From Kineosporia succinea (GTDB taxonomy: Bacteria > Actinomycetota > Actinomycetes > Actinomycetales > Kineosporiaceae), in NCBI RefSeq assembly GCF_030811555.1, contig NZ_JAUSQZ010000001.1:5887241-5951240 (forward strand): DNA of 64,000 nucleotides, given 5' to 3'. Under the pieces are notes generated by a model. It saw nothing but the letters and a program-made list of their open reading frames with translations. It was not told the origin of the DNA and did not search any database. Of this stretch, positions 29,663-41,639 are shown piece after piece (position 1 is the first letter of the stretch; each line of letters opens with the position of its first letter). A program made the position numbers and the translations under genes.

Positions 29663-30348
29663 TCAAGCGAGGATCTTCGCGAGGTTGTTCGCGACGTGCG
29701 TGCCAATGTTGTGCGCCAACACCGTCAGCTCATGATTTCGACGCTCAGCGTCAGCCTCGACGGCCTTGGCGAGCACCGCATCAACGATGATCCGATCCAC
29801 GCCATCGGCGCGGAGGTACCTCATCGGATCCCAGCCCAGCAGTAGCGCCGTCGCGGCATTCGCGACCTCGGCGGCGCCGGCTATTCCCCCGCGAAGTCCT
29901 CGTCGGCCTCGAGCTCCGCGTACCCCGAGAGCTTGTGGACCTTCCCGGCCAGCTGCAGGATGACACCGTCCTTCCCGAGGGTGAGGGCCCGCAGGATGGA
30001 CAGGTTCGTCGCGTCCGGCTCCAGGTCCAGGCCGGCGAGGAAGTCAGGGTCCTTCAGGCCAATCTCCCCGGCCGGGACGCCACTGCCGTCGTCATCTTCA
30101 CCGATCACCACCGCGTCGGTCGCATCGGCGATGATCGCGGCCGATGTCGCCAGCTCGACGCGCGCTTTCGCACCCTTCGTCGCGACGGAGATCTTGGTGC
30201 TCTGCTTGCGCAGGAACTCGTGCTCCAGCGGATGCATGCGCAGCGCCAACCGAGGCGAAGACCAGCCCGGGAGCAGCACATCCTCGCTCGCAGCCTCAGC
30301 GAGCAGCTGCTCACGTCGGGCCTTGAGCCCATCGAAAAGGGAAGGCAT
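29663..30348 (-). CDS. Tail assembly chaperone gpG-T fusion by -1 frameshift
   Basis: Just before the stop of gpG the sequence GGGGGAA (29884-29890) allows a -1 shift. The new frame then continues for 73 codons (counted back from the TGA at 29663-29665): IAGAAEVANAATALLL, then a helical acidic stretch ending NNLAKILA. The product would be about 228 residues. The frame has normal codon content and sits exactly where lambda gpGT, L5-type and other long-tailed phages place this shift. Confidence 0.85.
29881..30348 (-). CDS. Tail assembly chaperone gpG
   Basis: 155 residues; the ATG at 30348 shares a base with the stop of the tail-tube gene (TGATG). Acidic, with a DVLLPGWSSPRLALRMHPLEHEFLRKQS segment. 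Position between tail tube and tape measure, plus the frameshift signal at the end, identifies it. In related phages gpG coats the tape measure before tube assembly. Confidence 0.8.
   Translation of the reverse strand: MPSLFDGLKARREQLLAEAASEDVLLPGWSSPRLALRMHPLEHEFLRKQSTKISVATKGAKARVELATSAAIIADATDAVVIGEDDDGSGVPAGEIGLKDPDFLAGLDLEPDATNLSILRALTLGKDGVILQLAGKVHKLSGYAELEADEDFAGE
29884..29890 (-). promoter_or_regulatory. -1 ribosomal slippery sequence GGGGGAA
   Basis: Within GCG GGG GAA TAG, shifting back one base gives GGG GGA ATA and opens the T frame. The heptamer sits immediately before the gpG stop codon. Confidence 0.75.
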
Positions 30349-34549: not shown

Positions 34550-35371
34550 TCAGTCCGCCAGCGCGGACAGGACCGTCGAGCGGGACTTGCCGTCACGCTC
34601 GGCCTGCAGCAGACGCTCGCGCTGCTCCGGATGGTCCTTCGCGTACTGGATCACCTGAGGGCCCGAATGCTCAGCCGGGTCGAACGCGGCCGGGGAGTCG
34701 ACCTCGACACCCGCGGACTCAGCCCCGCCAGTCTGCTCGCCGTCAACGGCGGTGGCAGGCGTCGCGGCTCCCTCGATCAGCGGAGCCGACTGGGAGACCG
34801 TCGCGCCCGTGACGGGCTCGACCAGCACCGAGCTCTGCGCCTCCATCGGCACCACAACCACGCCGGCGCCGTCGGACGAGCCGTTCTCCGAGACGATGTT
34901 CGACCCGGACGGCTGACGGCCCTCGACCTGCGTGCGAGCCCGGACCGGATTCCCGGCGCCCGGGACGCCGACAGCATTCGGGTCAACCTCGACCGTCACG
35001 GGAACCGTCGTGGCCATCGCCGACCGGCCGTCCTGGGCGAGCTGCACCGGGTCCGGAGTGCCCGGCGGCAGGGACTCGTCAGGGGAGAAAGTCGCGGCGC
35101 CGGCCCGCTGCAGGGCGTTCTCGTACGACAGCGGGGACGTGTAAGCGTCCGCGGTCAGGACGGGATCGGTTCCGATCCCGGTCTGGTGGCCCGGGCCGGT
35201 CTCCCCCTCGGCCAGCGTCGGGCCGTCACCATGCGGCTCGACGATCTCGCCGGCGTTCTGTTCGAGGTAGTTCGCGAGGTCGCCCTCAACGATCTGGCCA
35301 GCTTCGAGGTCGTGGAACGTGCAGGACGGAGAATGGTAGATGCGCGCGTCGCGCTTCACACGAACGGCCAC
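34550..35371 (-). CDS. Hypothetical virion protein after the capsid gene
   Basis: 273 residues from GTG 35371 with AAGGAGG upstream. The N-terminal 50 residues look like a small domain (RVKRDARIYHSPSCTFHDLEAGQIVEGDLANYLEQ). The middle is low-complexity and Gly/Pro/Ser-rich, and the C-terminal 35 residues form a charged helical motif (VIQYAKDHPEQRERLLQAERDGKSRSTVLSAL). Possibly a decoration, head-tail or capsid-binding protein. Confidence 0.55.
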   Translation of the reverse strand: MAVRVKRDARIYHSPSCTFHDLEAGQIVEGDLANYLEQNAGEIVEPHGDGPTLAEGETGPGHQTGIGTDPVLTADAYTSPLSYENALQRAGAATFSPDESLPPGTPDPVQLAQDGRSAMATTVPVTVEVDPNAVGVPGAGNPVRARTQVEGRQPSGSNIVSENGSSDGAGVVVVPMEAQSSVLVEPVTGATVSQSAPLIEGAATPATAVDGEQTGGAESAGVEVDSPAAFDPAEHSGPQVIQYAKDHPEQRERLLQAERDGKSRSTVLSALAD

Positions 35372-35463: not shown

Positions 35464-36834
35464 CTACGCGTGACGGATCAGGACGGCTCGCTTGTAGAGC
35501 GAGGTGTCGCCCGAGGCGTTCAGCAGGTCCGTCGGGACGCCGAAGCCACCCACAGTGGTCCACGATGTCGAGACCTGCTGCTGCAGACGGTCCTGCGGCG
35601 GGCGCACGATCAGGGCCACCTCCACGCCGGGGGACGGCTGCACCATGCTGATGCTCGGCACGGACTCGACGCCCGTACCGCGCAGCAGCTCCGCGAGGCC
35701 CTGCAGCGGCGACCAGACCAGCGCGCCGCCACCGACCATCAGGCAGTTGTTCACGGGCAGCGTCCCGCCCGAGCCGCCCAGCGTCATCGGGGTCTCGTTG
35801 TTCACGACGAAATCGATGCCGTTGACCCGGCCGAAAGACCGCTCACGCCAGACCGGGGACTCGGCCAGGCCCTGCGTTGCCTGCTTCCAGTCCGGGTCGA
35901 GCCACAGCTCATTGATGGTGTCCTCGGTGACGAAGGCGGTGTAGCCACCGTTGATCCGGGGGACGTTCATCTTCGCGAGCCTGGTCGCAGCGGCCCGGAA
36001 CAGGGTCAGGGTCGCGATGTTGTTCGCGCCCAGGTCGTAGGCGTTCGTGCCCGTGGGCTGAACGACCTGAGGGGCGTTCGCGGCGATCACGGCCTGGCCG
36101 TTCGTCACAGTCACCGACGTGCCGAGAGTCAGAGTGCCCGGTCCCGACGCGGTGGACGTGCCGGTGACGGTGTTTGCGACGCCGTTCACCGTGACGGTCA
36201 GCGGGTTGCCCGCGCTGACCGCGGTCAGCCGGCCGTTCACCGAAGTGAAGCCGAAGCCCTGGGTGTTGGCGACGGCGATGGTGGTCGACGTAGCGCCCGC
36301 CGTCACGTGAGTGCGTCCACCGGAGTACGGTGCCCACAGCGCGTTCCGGGCGGCCTGCGACATCGACTGCGCCGCGTGCACACCGAGCTGCTCGACGTCC
36401 TCGACATACTTGGAGCCCAGCGCGACCGCCGAGGCCAGCATGTTCGTGTCGATCGAGCGGCCCCACTGATCCAGGGTCGCGGTCCACTGCTCGAGGCTGT
36501 ACGACGCGGCGGTGACGTCCGACCCGGGGGTGATCGGCGTCGGCGTCGGCGTCATCAGACCCTTACGGGTCCAGATCTTCTCGTCGCCGATGTTCCCGAC
36601 CCACGGCTCAGTGTCCGCGATCGTCGGGAAGATCCACTCAGGGGTCAGTGCGTCACGGAAAACACGCTGCAGCAGCCCCTTCTGAACGATGCCCTGGATC
36701 GCGGCAGGCAGGGCCGACGCGATGTCGTGCGCGTTCAGGCGCATCTGCACCTTGCCGTCGCGCGCGACATCGCGAAGCTTGATCGAACCGTGCCGCCCGG
36801 TGTGGCGGCCCGTCCGGGCGGTCATGGTGGTCAT
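35464..36834 (-). CDS. Major capsid protein
   Basis: 456 residues from ATG 36834 (GAGGAG inside the protease gene's end); ATG 36825 is also in frame. HK97-like signals: an N-terminal arm, then LSEWIFPTI-type (TPEWIFPTIADTEPW), a central domain with an inserted beta-rich module (about residues 185-260, AGATSTTIAVANTQGFGF to GTSVTVTNGQAVIAA), and a late SPLQGLAELLRGTG segment. Residues 31-40 (MRLNAHDIAS) resemble a motif in the scaffold, see the protease entry. Confidence 0.85.
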   Translation of the reverse strand: MTTMTARTGRHTGRHGSIKLRDVARDGKVQMRLNAHDIASALPAAIQGIVQKGLLQRVFRDALTPEWIFPTIADTEPWVGNIGDEKIWTRKGLMTPTPTPITPGSDVTAASYSLEQWTATLDQWGRSIDTNMLASAVALGSKYVEDVEQLGVHAAQSMSQAARNALWAPYSGGRTHVTAGATSTTIAVANTQGFGFTSVNGRLTAVSAGNPLTVTVNGVANTVTGTSTASGPGTLTLGTSVTVTNGQAVIAANAPQVVQPTGTNAYDLGANNIATLTLFRAAATRLAKMNVPRINGGYTAFVTEDTINELWLDPDWKQATQGLAESPVWRERSFGRVNGIDFVVNNETPMTLGGSGGTLPVNNCLMVGGGALVWSPLQGLAELLRGTGVESVPSISMVQPSPGVEVALIVRPPQDRLQQQVSTSWTTVGGFGVPTDLLNASGDTSLYKRAVLIRHA

Positions 36835-36835
36835 G

Positions 36836-37036
36836 TCACTCCTCAGTGAGGTTGATGGACACGAGGTCCGGGTACTCCTCAGCCACCGCAAGGAGACCGA
36901 GGGTTGCGGTGCGGGTGATCGCGGTGACAGCAGCGCAGACGCGCCCCTCATCACCGACCTGGCCCGGCCCGCGTTCGTGGCCGGTGACCTCGATGTGCGT
37001 AACCCCTTCGCGGAGAAGCGCATGAATCGCGATCAT
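36836..37036 (-). CDS. Prp-like cysteine protease (candidate prohead protease)
   Basis: 66 residues, ATGA overlap with the scaffold gene and one base before the capsid gene. The N-terminal part follows the Prp/YsxB family: MIAIHALLREG, GHE (His20) and VCAAVTAIT (Cys34). His and Cys are the known Prp catalytic pair. It lacks about 40 middle residues compared with the roughly 106-residue S. aureus enzyme, but keeps a C-terminal strand (EEYPDLVSINL). Prp cuts the L27 leader and, in Staphylococcus phage 80alpha, the scaffold and capsid. Placed here between scaffold and capsid, it is a good candidate for a phage-encoded prohead protease. Confidence 0.75.
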   Translation of the reverse strand: MIAIHALLREGVTHIEVTGHERGPGQVGDEGRVCAAVTAITRTATLGLLAVAEEYPDLVSINLTEE

Positions 37037-37800
37037 CGGCGGCGGCGGATACCCATCGAGGCAAGCTCGTCGTTCACCTCGTCGTCCGACGCCTTCATGA
37101 AGTCCTTCGGGCGCGGCCCCGGCTGATTGCCTTGACTGGGATCCGGGGCGGGCTTCGGCGGGGCAGGCGGTGTAGCAGGCGCCGGGGCGGCCTTCTTCAG
37201 CAGCGGCTTCGCCTCGAGCAGATCGGCGACCGCCTTCTCGATGGCGTCCGTGTCGACGCCGCCGTCCGTCAGGTACACGTCGAGGTTCCGGGACAGCAGG
37301 TCGACGACGATGCTGGGGTCCGCAGCCTCGGCCTGAATCGCAGCCGACCGCAGATCCGAAGACACTGCGCGGCGATTGGCCTTCAGCTCGCGCTCCGCCG
37401 CACGCTCTGCCGCGGCCTGAGCCTTCTCGAGCTCAGATTTCTTCGCGTCCTCGAACTCTTGAACCTTCTTCTCTGCTGCCTCGCGAGCGGCCTTGGCCTC
37501 TCGGGCCTCCCGCTCGGCGGCCTTGCGGGCCTCCCGCTCGGTGGTCAGAGCCTTCTGGCCGGCGTCCCCGAGGTTGCCGTCATCGGCAGGCTTTCGGGGC
37601 TCCGGGACCGGCTTGCTTTCCGGCTCCTTCGCGGGAGCTGGGGCCGCCAGCTTCGACCCGGCGGGATTGGGGACCGGTGTCGATTCGGGATCTCCGGTGG
37701 TCTCCGGGGCGGAGTCGGTGTCGTGTGCGGTCAGCTGCATCCGGATCGGATGCGACCTCAGCGCGCGGCTCTTGAGGTGGATCAGGGCGGTGGGGGCCAT
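37033..37800 (-). CDS. Scaffold protein
   Basis: 255 residues. ATG 37800 has GAGGAG upstream; an in-frame upstream ATG (37845) is less likely. A long charged coiled coil (about residues 95-150, EREARKAAEREAREAKAAREAAEKK) and Pro-rich stretches at both ends are typical of phage scaffolds. Residues 21-30 (MQLTAHDTDS) resemble capsid residues 31-40 (MRLNAHDIAS) and may be a shared cleavage site for the protease encoded next. Confidence 0.8.
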   Translation of the reverse strand: MAPTALIHLKSRALRSHPIRMQLTAHDTDSAPETTGDPESTPVPNPAGSKLAAPAPAKEPESKPVPEPRKPADDGNLGDAGQKALTTEREARKAAEREAREAKAAREAAEKKVQEFEDAKKSELEKAQAAAERAAERELKANRRAVSSDLRSAAIQAEAADPSIVVDLLSRNLDVYLTDGGVDTDAIEKAVADLLEAKPLLKKAAPAPATPPAPPKPAPDPSQGNQPGPRPKDFMKASDDEVNDELASMGIRRRR

Positions 37801-37897: not shown

Positions 37898-39409
37898 TCA
37901 GGCAGCGGGCAGGATCAGCCCGGAATTGGGCGCCTCAGGGGCAGCAGGGGTTGCCGCGAGCCGGGCTCGCCGGGCATCCTCTTCGGCCTCCTGCGCGAGC
38001 TCAGCCTTCATTCGGGCCTGCTGCGCCGCCGAGTAGCCGAGGTCATCCCACGCCTGCCGCTGCGAAATCGTCCGGTCGGCGCGCTTCTTGACCACGGCGT
38101 CCGCGGCCTGAGCCACGGTCGGAGTGCCAGCGTCCCGCCACTTCGTTTCCATGGCCGACGCACCCTCAGGCAGACGCCCGTCGCGGATGAGCAGCGCGAT
38201 CCTCAGCACCTGCTCGTAGGACTCACCGAACATCCGCTGCTTCCGCTCAACCCGCGTCACCAGCCGGGACTCACCGGAGCGAATCGCGTCAGCAGAGCTT
38301 GGATTGTCGGCCCGGGATCCCATGTAGTGCGCGGGCAGTCCAGCGATCGACGCCGTCAGATCCGCCAGCAGCCGGATCGTCTCGTGAAAGTTGCTGAGCT
38401 GCGCCTCGGGGAACTGGCCGAACTTCACGTCCTTGTCGCTGTTCGCCCACAGTCGGCCGATGATCCGAGACAGGGCCGATTTCTGATTGCCGGAGCGGTC
38501 AACGAAGTCAGATGCATCCACGCCCGTAGCCCAACGGCGAGGCAGAGCATGAAACTCGGCGCCCGACATCATGTCCGTGGCGATCTTGCACGCCGCATCC
38601 GACAACGGAAGGATCGGAGACAGCTCCGACATGCCCAAAGTCTTCGATGCGACCGAACCCCGCAGACTCGGTTCGCGGCGGCCAGAGCCAGTACGGGGTC
38701 GGTTGATCAGAGGAACGACGTTCACCACGCCGAGCTTGTGCTCGTCGTAGCCCGGCGAGTTGTGATCGTCGATCACCCAGCCACCCGGACGTGAGTTCGT
38801 CGCCGCGCGGTGTACGAGGTACGTCGTCGCGTTGCGCGTGTACAGGGTCACGTGACTCTCGTCCTGGCCCTGATCCCCGACGCCCGTCCACCACTTCGCC
38901 GCCGAAGACACCCGTCGCGTACGAGGATCCAGGATGCAGTGCATCGCCAGCGGCGACTCCACCGTGATCAGCGGAACCTCAACACCGACCCCGGACGACG
39001 GATCCAGGTCAGCCGCGGTCCGCTGCCCCACGATCATGAAGCTGCGGCGCATCACCAACGCATCAACCTGGGCCTGATGAGAGCTCAGGTCCAGGCCGTT
39101 GCCCTGCCAGATGCTCCACAGATCCTCGCTGTACGCGCCGTCGCCCAGCTGGAACCCGTCGACATTCAGGCGGTCCTCGACGCTGCTCGTCACCAGGTCC
39201 GGCCAATGCAGCACCACCTGCTGCAGACGGTCACCCAGCTCCATGATCAGCTCGGGGGCCATGTACGACAGCGGCTGTTCGCCGTTGTAATGGTCATCCA
39301 GCAGAGCCAACTCGAGCAGCTCATCCAAGTGAGCCGCGTCGAGCTGACGCACCAGAGGCATCGCATCGTCAAGAATTCGAGACTCGACCGGGAGAGTGAC
39401 CAGCGACAA
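37898..39409 (-). CDS. Portal protein (SPP1 gp6-like)
   Basis: 503 residues from TTG 39409 (GGAGG 6 bases upstream). DHYNGEQPLSYMAPELIMEL, DRLNVDGFQL, LSDAACKIATDMMSGAEFHALPRRW and LTASIAGLPAHYMGSRADNPSSADAIRSGE are typical of the gp6-like portal family. The C-terminus is a charged helix. Forms the DNA channel at one capsid vertex. Confidence 0.9.
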   Translation of the reverse strand: MSLVTLPVESRILDDAMPLVRQLDAAHLDELLELALLDDHYNGEQPLSYMAPELIMELGDRLQQVVLHWPDLVTSSVEDRLNVDGFQLGDGAYSEDLWSIWQGNGLDLSSHQAQVDALVMRRSFMIVGQRTAADLDPSSGVGVEVPLITVESPLAMHCILDPRTRRVSSAAKWWTGVGDQGQDESHVTLYTRNATTYLVHRAATNSRPGGWVIDDHNSPGYDEHKLGVVNVVPLINRPRTGSGRREPSLRGSVASKTLGMSELSPILPLSDAACKIATDMMSGAEFHALPRRWATGVDASDFVDRSGNQKSALSRIIGRLWANSDKDVKFGQFPEAQLSNFHETIRLLADLTASIAGLPAHYMGSRADNPSSADAIRSGESRLVTRVERKQRMFGESYEQVLRIALLIRDGRLPEGASAMETKWRDAGTPTVAQAADAVVKKRADRTISQRQAWDDLGYSAAQQARMKAELAQEAEEDARRARLAATPAAPEAPNSGLILPAA

Positions 39410-39422
39410 CAGGCACCTCCGG

Positions 39423-41066
39423 TCACATCACGATGGTCTTCGACTTCCGAACCAGCTGCGTCGGTTTCCAGCCGGCAGCGAGCGCATCGGCCCGGGCCTC
39501 ATAAGCGAGCGCGGCACCGACCGTCGAGTCGATCTTCCGGTCCGAGTGCTCGTTCTCCTTACGGACCAGCCGCAGCTTGCCCCGCATCCGCACGTACGTG
39601 TTCCCGAAGTGCTCACTCATCAGCGAGTCACCCGAGTGCAGAACTTCTTCCTTGACCAGATCAGTGCGCAGGCGCTCAAGCGCCGCGGCCATCTGCACAT
39701 CTCGCGAGGTCGCCCAGAGAATGACCCGCTTCTCGCCGAACTCCGAGGCGATCGACTCCAAGTCGGTGCGCCATTCGTGCGGGTCTCCGTACATGCGGAC
39801 GATCTCGTAGCGACCAAAGGCCGCGCGCATCGCGCCGAGCACCTCGGACCGAGGAACCTCCCACCAGGCACCCTCAAGGCCTTCGGGCTTCTCCCAGATC
39901 CCGATCGGAAAGATGAACCCGTCCGACATGCGCGACCCGATCAGGACCGTCGAGTCGTCGTTCAGGCTGCCGTCAAACCCCACCGTGAGCGCGGTGCCCG
40001 GTTCTAGCGCCTCGAAACCAGGCTTCGGCTCTAGCAGGTCGGCCGACGGCGACACCCACAACGCGAGCGCCTGCCGCTCGATGATGTCCGTGCCCAGCCA
40101 CACGTCCTTCCCCGACATTGGCCGGTTCAGGAAGTAGCGGACTGCAGTCGCGACATCCGGGCAGATCCGCGTGTCGTGCATGTCCCGGAACTTGCGGTCC
40201 ATGTCGATCCGCGACGCCGCAGCACCATAAACCTGCCGCAGCTGGGCCTTCGTGTGCTTCTCGTCCTTGAGGTCGATGCGGCCCTTCGCCTCACGGTGAT
40301 TCACGAACACCGCCGGCGAGAGCGTCTTCTTCCGCCAGGCCGTCAGGGTCGCCTCGAAAACCGACTGCTCACCAGGCTTGTAAGCGGTCGACGTCTGGTG
40401 AATCCACGGGTCCGCGTCGAAGCGCTTCCCGAGGTTACGGGCGATCGTCGCGTACATCTCGCGGAGCTCAGCCGTGACGTACAGGTGCGTCTCATCGAAC
40501 ACCACGTGCGACTCGAGGCCGCCGTCCTTCGACGCCGCACCCGAGGTCGAGGCCCTGATCTCACCACCGTGCGGCAAGTAGATCGCCGAAGCTGACTGGT
40601 ACTGCCGGGTGCCCGTCGCGCCGGCATAGATCTCGGGGAAGTTGTCCTTACCCCACTCGCCCGCGATGAAAGCGATCGTCTTGAAAGTGTTCCCGGCCTG
40701 GCCTTCTTCCGTGGCCATGCACTTGATCAGCGGCGAGACCACGGGCCGGGCTACCGGCTGCCCCTCAGCGTTCCATCCGTCGAACCGCACCGGGAAAAAC
40801 GCCTCAGCGACCGCAACCCACGCGGCGATCTCCGACTTCGCCCGACCCTTAGGCCGAGACAAGACAGCCTCGTTGAACACCCGACGCCCCGTGAACGGGT
40901 CAATCCGGTAGCACTCGACGATATGGTCAGCCATCTCGTCGTCGACCTGCGCAGGCCGGCCCTGAATATCGCCCTCGCCGTGGCACATGAACGCCTCAAT
41001 GGCGTCGATGACCTCGTAACCGACCGAGCAGGCATGCCCCTCGAACTGCGGCCCAGCCCAAGGCAC
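39423..41066 (-). CDS. terL: Terminase large subunit
   Basis: 547 residues from GTG 41066. Walker A-like LSRPKGRAKSE (about residues 69-79), Walker B HVVFDE (187-192), and nuclease-domain acids such as VGFDGSLNDDS (about 345). The ATPase packages DNA and the nuclease cuts concatemers. Follows the small subunit by 17 bases. Confidence 0.9.
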   Translation of the reverse strand: MPWAGPQFEGHACSVGYEVIDAIEAFMCHGEGDIQGRPAQVDDEMADHIVECYRIDPFTGRRVFNEAVLSRPKGRAKSEIAAWVAVAEAFFPVRFDGWNAEGQPVARPVVSPLIKCMATEEGQAGNTFKTIAFIAGEWGKDNFPEIYAGATGTRQYQSASAIYLPHGGEIRASTSGAASKDGGLESHVVFDETHLYVTAELREMYATIARNLGKRFDADPWIHQTSTAYKPGEQSVFEATLTAWRKKTLSPAVFVNHREAKGRIDLKDEKHTKAQLRQVYGAAASRIDMDRKFRDMHDTRICPDVATAVRYFLNRPMSGKDVWLGTDIIERQALALWVSPSADLLEPKPGFEALEPGTALTVGFDGSLNDDSTVLIGSRMSDGFIFPIGIWEKPEGLEGAWWEVPRSEVLGAMRAAFGRYEIVRMYGDPHEWRTDLESIASEFGEKRVILWATSRDVQMAAALERLRTDLVKEEVLHSGDSLMSEHFGNTYVRMRGKLRLVRKENEHSDRKIDSTVGAALAYEARADALAAGWKPTQLVRKSKTIVM

Positions 41067-41083: not shown

Positions 41084-41530
41084 TCAAGCGCCGCGAGCGC
41101 GAGCGCGATCCAGTGCAGTCACCGTCGCACGCCCAGACCCGGCACCCTTCGGCTGATGCGCGCCCCGAGGCGTACCGCGACGCTGAGGCACATTCCCAAC
41201 CTCATCCGGCAGCCTCAACGCCGCCAGCAACTGCTTCAGCAAGTTCTGCTGCTGCCGCGCCTCACCCAACGCGCTCGACACCACCAACAGCAACGCGTCA
41301 CCGTCATCACGCGGAAGCTCCACGCGCGCCCACGTCTCCACATCGCCCGAAAGCAGCTCGTCGAGCTTCTCCAGGCGATCCGCGCAACGGCATGCCTCAA
41401 GCAGAATCTCAACCTCGGCCGGCTTGCCGCGCATGTCCACGCCACCCGTAACCGCCACCCACAGCGCGGCACCACGACGGCCCAGACGAGCCGGCACATC
41501 CATCAGGAAGCCAGCAGGAGCTTCAGTCAT
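41084..41530 (-). CDS. Terminase small subunit (P27-like)
   Basis: 148 residues; ATG 41530 has GGAGGGGG upstream. Helical, with VEILLEACRCADRLEKLDELLSGDVETWARVEL and a C-terminal RGTPRGAHQPKGAGSGRATVTALDRARARGA tail, as in P27-type small terminases. Position before terL confirms it. It recognises the packaging site. Confidence 0.75.
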   Translation of the reverse strand: MTEAPAGFLMDVPARLGRRGAALWVAVTGGVDMRGKPAEVEILLEACRCADRLEKLDELLSGDVETWARVELPRDDGDALLLVVSSALGEARQQQNLLKQLLAALRLPDEVGNVPQRRGTPRGAHQPKGAGSGRATVTALDRARARGA

Positions 41531-41639
41531 CACAACCCCCTCCGCGGCATCGCGCCACGAACGAGACCCGACAGGCATCGCGCCCACCAGGCAGACAGTT
41601 GAACAGGAAACATTTCAGGTGCTCTGGACCGCGAGCTAC

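Follow-up and report, generated by a model that had tools for sequence, protein, structure and literature searches.

Does a prophage of Kineosporia succinea encode its own, much reduced Prp-type protease for the two head proteins whose genes flank it? The prophage lies within a host genome that is a single contig of 8.07 Mb. In the window, the whole stretch of 64,000 nucleotides that was analysed, its genes are located on the minus strand in the order small terminase (41084-41587), large terminase (39423-41066), portal (37898-39409), scaffold (37033-37800), a small gene here called mini-Prp (36836-37036), major capsid protein (35464-36834), connectors, tail sheath and tube, and tape measure. 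As a tail sheath gene is present, the phage is contractile-tailed. The portal (PHROG 104 portal, E 1.1e-115) is directly upstream of the scaffold, which matches PHROG 4708 (head scaffolding, E 1.1e-20) and Pfam Phage_scaffold (E 3.3e-6, under that family's cut-off). The capsid protein matches PHROG 1357 (major head protein, E 2.3e-16) and is 44.7% identical to the major capsid protein of Streptomyces phage Kromp.

The earlier note had placed a 66-residue gene with a GH (His20) and a CAAV (Cys34) signature at 36836-37036. The open reading frame is confirmed, with GH at residues 19-20 (His20 codon 36977-36979) and CAAV at residues 34-37 (Cys34 codon 36935-36937), and the spacing is as described: the gene overlaps the scaffold stop by 4 bases and its own stop lies one base before the capsid ATG. 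A GAGGAG stretch precedes both the scaffold ATG (37800) and the capsid ATG (36834). No stop interrupts the capsid frame across the entire mini-Prp gene, and the resulting call has 519 residues (35464-37023, minus strand); the true capsid start is 36834. With the GAGGAG stretch ahead of this ATG and the motif of the N-terminal extension conserved in relatives, the extension is unlikely to be an artefact of start-codon choice. The 273-residue protein adjoining the capsid (34550-35371, minus strand) has no Pfam or PHROGs match at the limits used. A near-identical contig of the window phage (IMGVR_UViG_2734481999_000002; our loci L016 and L136) has broken scaffold and capsid frames, by sequencing error or decay.

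The mini-Prp family and its fold

Taken alone, the window mini-Prp gives modest scores. It matches PF04327 (Peptidase_Prp) with E 2.2e-4 and 21.9 bits, not reaching the curated cut-off of 27, and PHROG 4478 ('peptidase') with E 7.6e-5; NCBIfam Prp is matched only at E 0.055, and phmmer against PDB sequences found no Prp. The family is clear. Scanning viral contigs with the first alignment gave 108 relatives, 80 of which were kept, and with earlier finds these make 90 loci, whose mini-Prps are 62-74 residues long. Every one of the 64 distinct members reaches E<=1e-3 against PF04327, the best having 2.4e-9, and this supports the assignment to a Prp-type cysteine protease that had been made from the single sequence. 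The family profile searched against PDB sequences matches 2g0i (E 1.8e-5) and 4peo/7kld, the S. aureus Prp (6e-4), followed more weakly by the Prps 2idl (0.0075) and 7jvs (0.054) and also by 1s12 (0.62); an unrelated coat protein scores 0.11 in the same search.

Gly19, His20, Gly31 and Cys34 (window numbering) are invariant in the alignment of the 64 distinct mini-Prps; the catalytic His and Cys are thus kept in 64/64, as are the equivalents of Gly21 and Gly29. The G, H and C are also invariant in a set of 74 sequences. The Ser38 equivalent is Ser in 56 and Thr in 8 of the 64, with at least one of a wider 87 departing. The gene is under purifying selection, with a median pN/pS of 0.35 (2170 pairs of 67 sequences). 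The His-Cys spacing is 10 in 81 of 87 loci, 11 in three, 12 in one and 14 in two. The two extra residues that had been noted between His and Cys are therefore real when set against S. aureus (14 versus 12), but they are peculiar to the window phage and a few relatives.

The published order of the Prp fold is ββαββαβ (PMC9405229). Aligned with clostridial full-length Prps, mini-Prp lacks about 44 columns in a gap that precedes the last strand, and the PDB profile search shows a second similarity, a weak one, between the end of mini-Prp and the C-terminal helix of full Prps. Both results agree with the shortening of about 40 residues in mid-protein that the earlier note had claimed. Setting the gap against the published order, we infer that strand 3, strand 4 and helix 2 were lost, which would leave ββαβ. 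An AlphaFold model had been proposed as a check on the Prp assignment, and this check did not return the Prp fold. The models of the window protein (74-row alignment; pLDDT 80.4, pTM 0.52) and of one relative (pLDDT 83.1, pTM 0.56) each consist of two strands and a helix; neither forms the last strand, both differ from ββαββαβ, and Foldseek of the two ββα models against the PDB returned no Prp (best E 2.6 and 2.4).

Loss of Asp31 kills the S. aureus enzyme, as described in PMC9405229. An equivalent was sought in the 64 mini-Prps and is absent; the Gly-Cys stretch is two residues shorter and has only Arg/Lys-Val there. The ribosomal role was sought in the host. Its L27 starts MAHKKGASSS (1498 of L015), with no N-terminal extension in the called ORF, and the processing of an L27 extension by which a Prp is recognised is not found. 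A PF04327 search of the host genome gave no match at E<=0.001 and detected no full-length Prp, and among 394 genomes of the class the single match is another mini-Prp beside such a capsid; the same search finds full-length Prp in three control genomes. These results are in line with the idea of a phage-borne enzyme, and the phage apparently supplies a tiny processing enzyme of its own where hosts have none. As the searches for Asp31, for the complete fold and for the L27 role were all negative, mini-Prp is not filed as a bona fide Prp of MEROPS C108; the best reading of the sequences is a putative Prp descendant with an internal deletion.

The shared N-terminal motif and the predicted cut

The earlier note had seen a common motif in scaffold residues 21-30 (MQLTAHDTDS) and capsid residues 31-40 (MRLNAHDIAS), and the residues are as it gave them. 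The family motif, covariation and a pattern scan point to candidate recognition sites IRMQLTAH/D in the scaffold (residues 19-27, 37720-37746, minus strand) and VQMRLNAH/D in the capsid (residues 29-37, 36724-36750, minus strand), the slash marking the predicted cut. The pattern ..[FLMVIY]x[LIV]x[AR]H[DENA] occurs four times in the six-frame translation of the window (94,026 residues in stop-free stretches of at least 60 residues), and two of the four are these sites. A 53-residue ORF adjoining the tape-measure gene (29663-29824, minus strand) carries ELTVLAHNIG, which fits the loose motif, probably by chance.

The motif was also sought in relatives. Kromp has WFQLTRHD in its scaffold and WFRLDRHD in its capsid, and a similar block recurs in both proteins at other loci, the consensus over 87 scaffold/capsid pairs being W-F-x-L-x-R-H-D. 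Starting from 183 loci with a mini-Prp gene, 98 have distinct mini-Prps and 93 of these include the capsid N-terminal region. In all 93, x[LIV]x[RAS][HF] lies directly before the capsid core (one pick, in L076, was corrected afterwards), although the capsid words were chosen with [LIV]x[RAS][HF], so that three positions are constrained and the capsid conservation is partly by construction. A matrix built from the capsids (43 distinct words) and run over whole scaffold frames reaches at least 5 bits in 89 of 91 non-redundant scaffolds, as compared with 1.9% of 1,820 shuffled scaffolds. The two misses are the frameshifted copy of the window phage (L136), unlike which the window phage's own scaffold carries the motif, and a locus with the motif in another frame (L185). 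At three loci (L036, L039, L108) the motif stands twice in tandem within one capsid extension (SWFRLDRHDGLRTL...RPWFDLGRHDVRSTLPAA).

Scaffold and capsid motifs also change together. The statistics that follow, all for the 87 pairs, ignore relatedness, and the pairs are phylogenetically non-independent. At P7, 18 scaffolds and 13 capsids depart from W, and 13 of these departures are shared (p 8e-12). P6 is not F in four scaffolds and four capsids; three are shared, with the identical residue each time (L/L, V/V, M/M; p 1.5e-4). P2 is not R in three scaffolds and two capsids, two shared (p 8e-4). Changes at P4 (three scaffolds, five capsids) never coincide, and F at P1 coincides in one of seven scaffold cases (p 0.08). 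Within pairs, 5.70 of 9 positions are identical; the figure after shuffling is 5.32, and none of 5000 shuffles reaches the paired value. The enzyme takes part in this pattern: a His-Cys spacing of 12 or more is found only in the window phage, L018 and L166, the same three of 87 loci in which P6 is not F in both substrates (p 9e-6). Matrix scores, covariation and pattern scan together rule out a chance resemblance, and the claim of a motif common to both N-termini stands, far above chance.

The cut is predicted differently from before. The earlier register had AS at P1'-P2' and a cut at IA/S. Conservation across relatives stops at H-D; Kromp and most relatives read HD-I-R or HD-D-P, and after H-D nothing is common to scaffold and capsid. 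The earlier register is thus probably wrong. S. aureus substrates are KLNLQFF/A, KFNLQFF/A and KLNLQHF/A (PMC9405229, PMC5744158), and in the complex described in PMC9405229, P4 and P6 are at the interface of the dimer, with P1 stacked on His22. In some actinophage scaffolds the block is WLFDLARFDED. Because an alignment on the P4 Leu and an aromatic P1 fits both the S. aureus sites and those of Lactococcus phages, the comparison favours a predicted cut at H/D (or F/D). P6, P4 and P1 then agree between actinophage and Prp sites; P1' is Asp more often than Ala, with Ala in 28 of 93 capsids, whose words were partly picked by pattern. A cut at H/D would leave nearly the N-terminus that relatives lacking the extension make directly.

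Co-occurrence with the capsid type and alternative explanations

Searching with capsid cores stripped of the extension gave 144 relatives, 80 of which were examined. Mini-Prp is directly upstream in 79 of these; the remaining sequence (L194) starts 102 bases before the core, at a contig end. With extension-less capsids as queries, at least 582 relatives were obtained, and of the 80 examined one (L029) is of the mini-Prp type. A mini-Prp gene is present in none of the other 79 outgroup loci (72 with at least 1 kb of upstream sequence), and none of their capsids has the N-terminal extension. The outgroup capsids start MGIQNFPAALQ or similar, and their nearest ATG is 5 residues before the core in 53 of 56 alignable capsids, the other three having no ATG. 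The distance from the predicted P1' to the core that follows is 5 residues in 65 of 93 capsids, 6 in 24 and 7 in three. As the co-occurrence contrasts two large clades, it may reflect one or few gains.

Our main reading, with a probability of about 0.8, is that a phage-encoded, internally deleted Prp would trim N-terminal tags from scaffold and capsid, most likely at H/D. It starts from what is found in the sequences, namely the gene with its PF04327 homology and invariant His and Cys, the shared motif, the co-occurrence and the covariation. Mini-Prp would have arisen from Prp through loss of the middle, comprising two strands and most of the second helix, and would be made from one transcript with its substrates. 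It would recognise a short N-terminal tag on both proteins (RMQLTAH-D and QMRLNAH-D here, mostly W-F-x-L-x-R-H-D elsewhere) and, while the procapsid assembles, cut it off by a Cys34/His20 mechanism, the likeliest bond being that between His and Asp. The trimmed capsid would be left with the N-terminus that extension-less homologues get by initiation. Proteolysis, the exact cut, its timing and the dimer we infer. We lean slightly towards a more specific proposal: that these actinobacterial phages have a radically reduced Prp of 62-66 residues and about half the known fold, among the smallest proteases known and probably dimeric, whose specificity for W-F-x-L-x-R-H/D (here M-x-L-x-A-H/D) would have co-evolved with two unrelated substrates, the loss of Asp31 being paired with loss of the P3 Gln that contacts it.

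Asp31 and about half of the fold are gone from mini-Prp, as might be expected if it were a degenerate relative without catalytic activity, a chaperone or adaptor of assembly that binds the shared tag and gathers scaffold and capsid uncut. A shared binding partner would also yield covariation between scaffold and capsid, and in 80alpha an intact scaffold N-terminus is described as needed and its cleavage as not needed (PMC5744158). We nevertheless consider a pure binder unlikely. It has no need of an invariant Cys, yet all 64 members keep both His and Cys, with Ser or Thr at the Ser38 position (at least one of the wider 87 departs), and the predicted new N-terminus coincides with the start of the extension-less homologues. 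That the motif is merely a docking signal between scaffold and capsid or to the portal, with no proteolysis and with mini-Prp nearby through inherited synteny, is barely credible. The 79 outgroup loci are without both extension and gene and their scaffold and capsid still assemble; in addition, the two motifs change together, and classical Prp sites are found at the same place in Lactococcus phages with a full-length Prp. The point in favour of docking is that the loci are related, and motif and gene move in one gene block.

Another enzyme could cut or bind the motif, either the gp4 'head maturation protease' or one of the host, and mini-Prp would then be a bystander. Kromp gp4 is labelled capsid maturation protease, PHROG 1522 is head maturation protease, and tblastn finds a gp4 homologue in 70 of the 72 mini-Prp loci whose upstream sequence exceeds 2.3 kb. 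However, Kromp gp4 matches only positions 25-347 of 591 of PHROG 1522, and Pfam VG15 weakly. The window phage keeps the mini-Prp gene and the motif but has no gp4 homologue in its 64 kb at E<=1e-3 (tblastn), nor a gp4-type gene between portal and scaffold; the two loci without gp4 are copies of this phage. Its lack of gp4 means that gp4 is not required for its mini-Prp system, and since the mini-Prp His-Cys loop covaries with the motif, a bystander role is very unlikely. In L004 and L008 (3193-5184), the gp4-type head gene has 663 residues as compared to 345; with the match of L004, the one tested, to Pfam Intein_splicing (E 2.4e-6, below cut-off), it probably holds an intein.

Trimming of tags by an internally deleted Prp is therefore the reading that we carry forward. 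It suggests a putative function for a small gene family, in which the miniature variant is new and the Prp kind is known. If the more specific proposal of a co-evolved specificity is also true, the three proteins would be a natural record of how a protease and its two substrates, scaffold and capsid, co-evolved. The system would offer a minimal cysteine protease for study, with a co-evolving set of motifs from which to decode specificity, and a second case in which to ask why scaffold and capsid tags are cut, which is unclear in 80alpha.

Comparison with known systems

HK97-type and P2-type prohead proteases are phage-encoded and trim the N-termini of scaffold or capsid, as proposed here for mini-Prp; they are serine proteases of other folds. 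The S. aureus Prp (MEROPS C108) is a host enzyme of 106 residues with the ββαββαβ fold and Asp31, and its substrates have Gln at P3 (PMC9405229). It acts on L27 and on the scaffold and capsid of phage 80alpha, the latter described as the first phage maturation by a host protease (PMC5744158). Mini-Prp resembles it in PF04327 homology, in the positions of Gly-His and Cys and in the Ser/Thr at the Ser38 position. It differs in being phage-encoded, in having only 62-74 residues with the middle deleted, and in lacking Asp31. The substrates are alike in carrying N-terminal tags on scaffold and capsid with a hydrophobic P6, Leu at P4, an aromatic P1 and, in part, a small P1'; the mini-Prp sites lack the P3 Gln and have mostly His at P1 and mostly Asp at P1'. 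The job of the host Prp in 80alpha is apparently done here by a half-size version borne by the phage, in hosts without Prp.

In a search of open-licence literature, no paper was found that describes cleavage of scaffold or capsid by a phage's own Prp; PMC10846135 mentions an ORF for a predicted Prp-like protease in a Shewanella phage. Lactococcus phages PLgT-1 and TP712 have a full-length Prp in the head module (95 residues, PF04327 positions 1-89 of 90), annotated 'peptidase' or unknown. For PLgT-1 the two records (KU892558.1 / NC_031016.1) name the gene differently, one as 'ribosomal protein', one as 'peptidase'. Scaffold and capsid of these phages start with Prp-like sites (LKLNLQLFA, LKFNLQRFA, LKFNLQRFS), including FxLxRF. 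The recognition motif, which the earlier note had expected to be new, is less so, as LKFNLQRFAG in these phages is close to WFxLxR[HF]D. Unlike mini-Prp, the Lactococcus Prp is located between portal and minor head protein, the capsid start is unrelated, and the P3 Gln and Asp31 equivalent are kept. A gut phage contig with a Prp-like gene (L289) has MLQLFA-type starts on three proteins (4344, 4934 and 7695), one scaffold-like, one capsid-like and a third of 174 residues near the tail genes.

A further comparison is with gp6 of Streptomyces phage Kromp, annotated 'protease', which belongs to the same family and occupies the same place between scaffold and capsid, with the motif in both proteins. 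Kromp is grown in the laboratory, and our reading gives it a predicted cut site. Kromp differs from the window phage in its extra gp4, its canonical WF..RH motif and its His-Cys spacing of 10.
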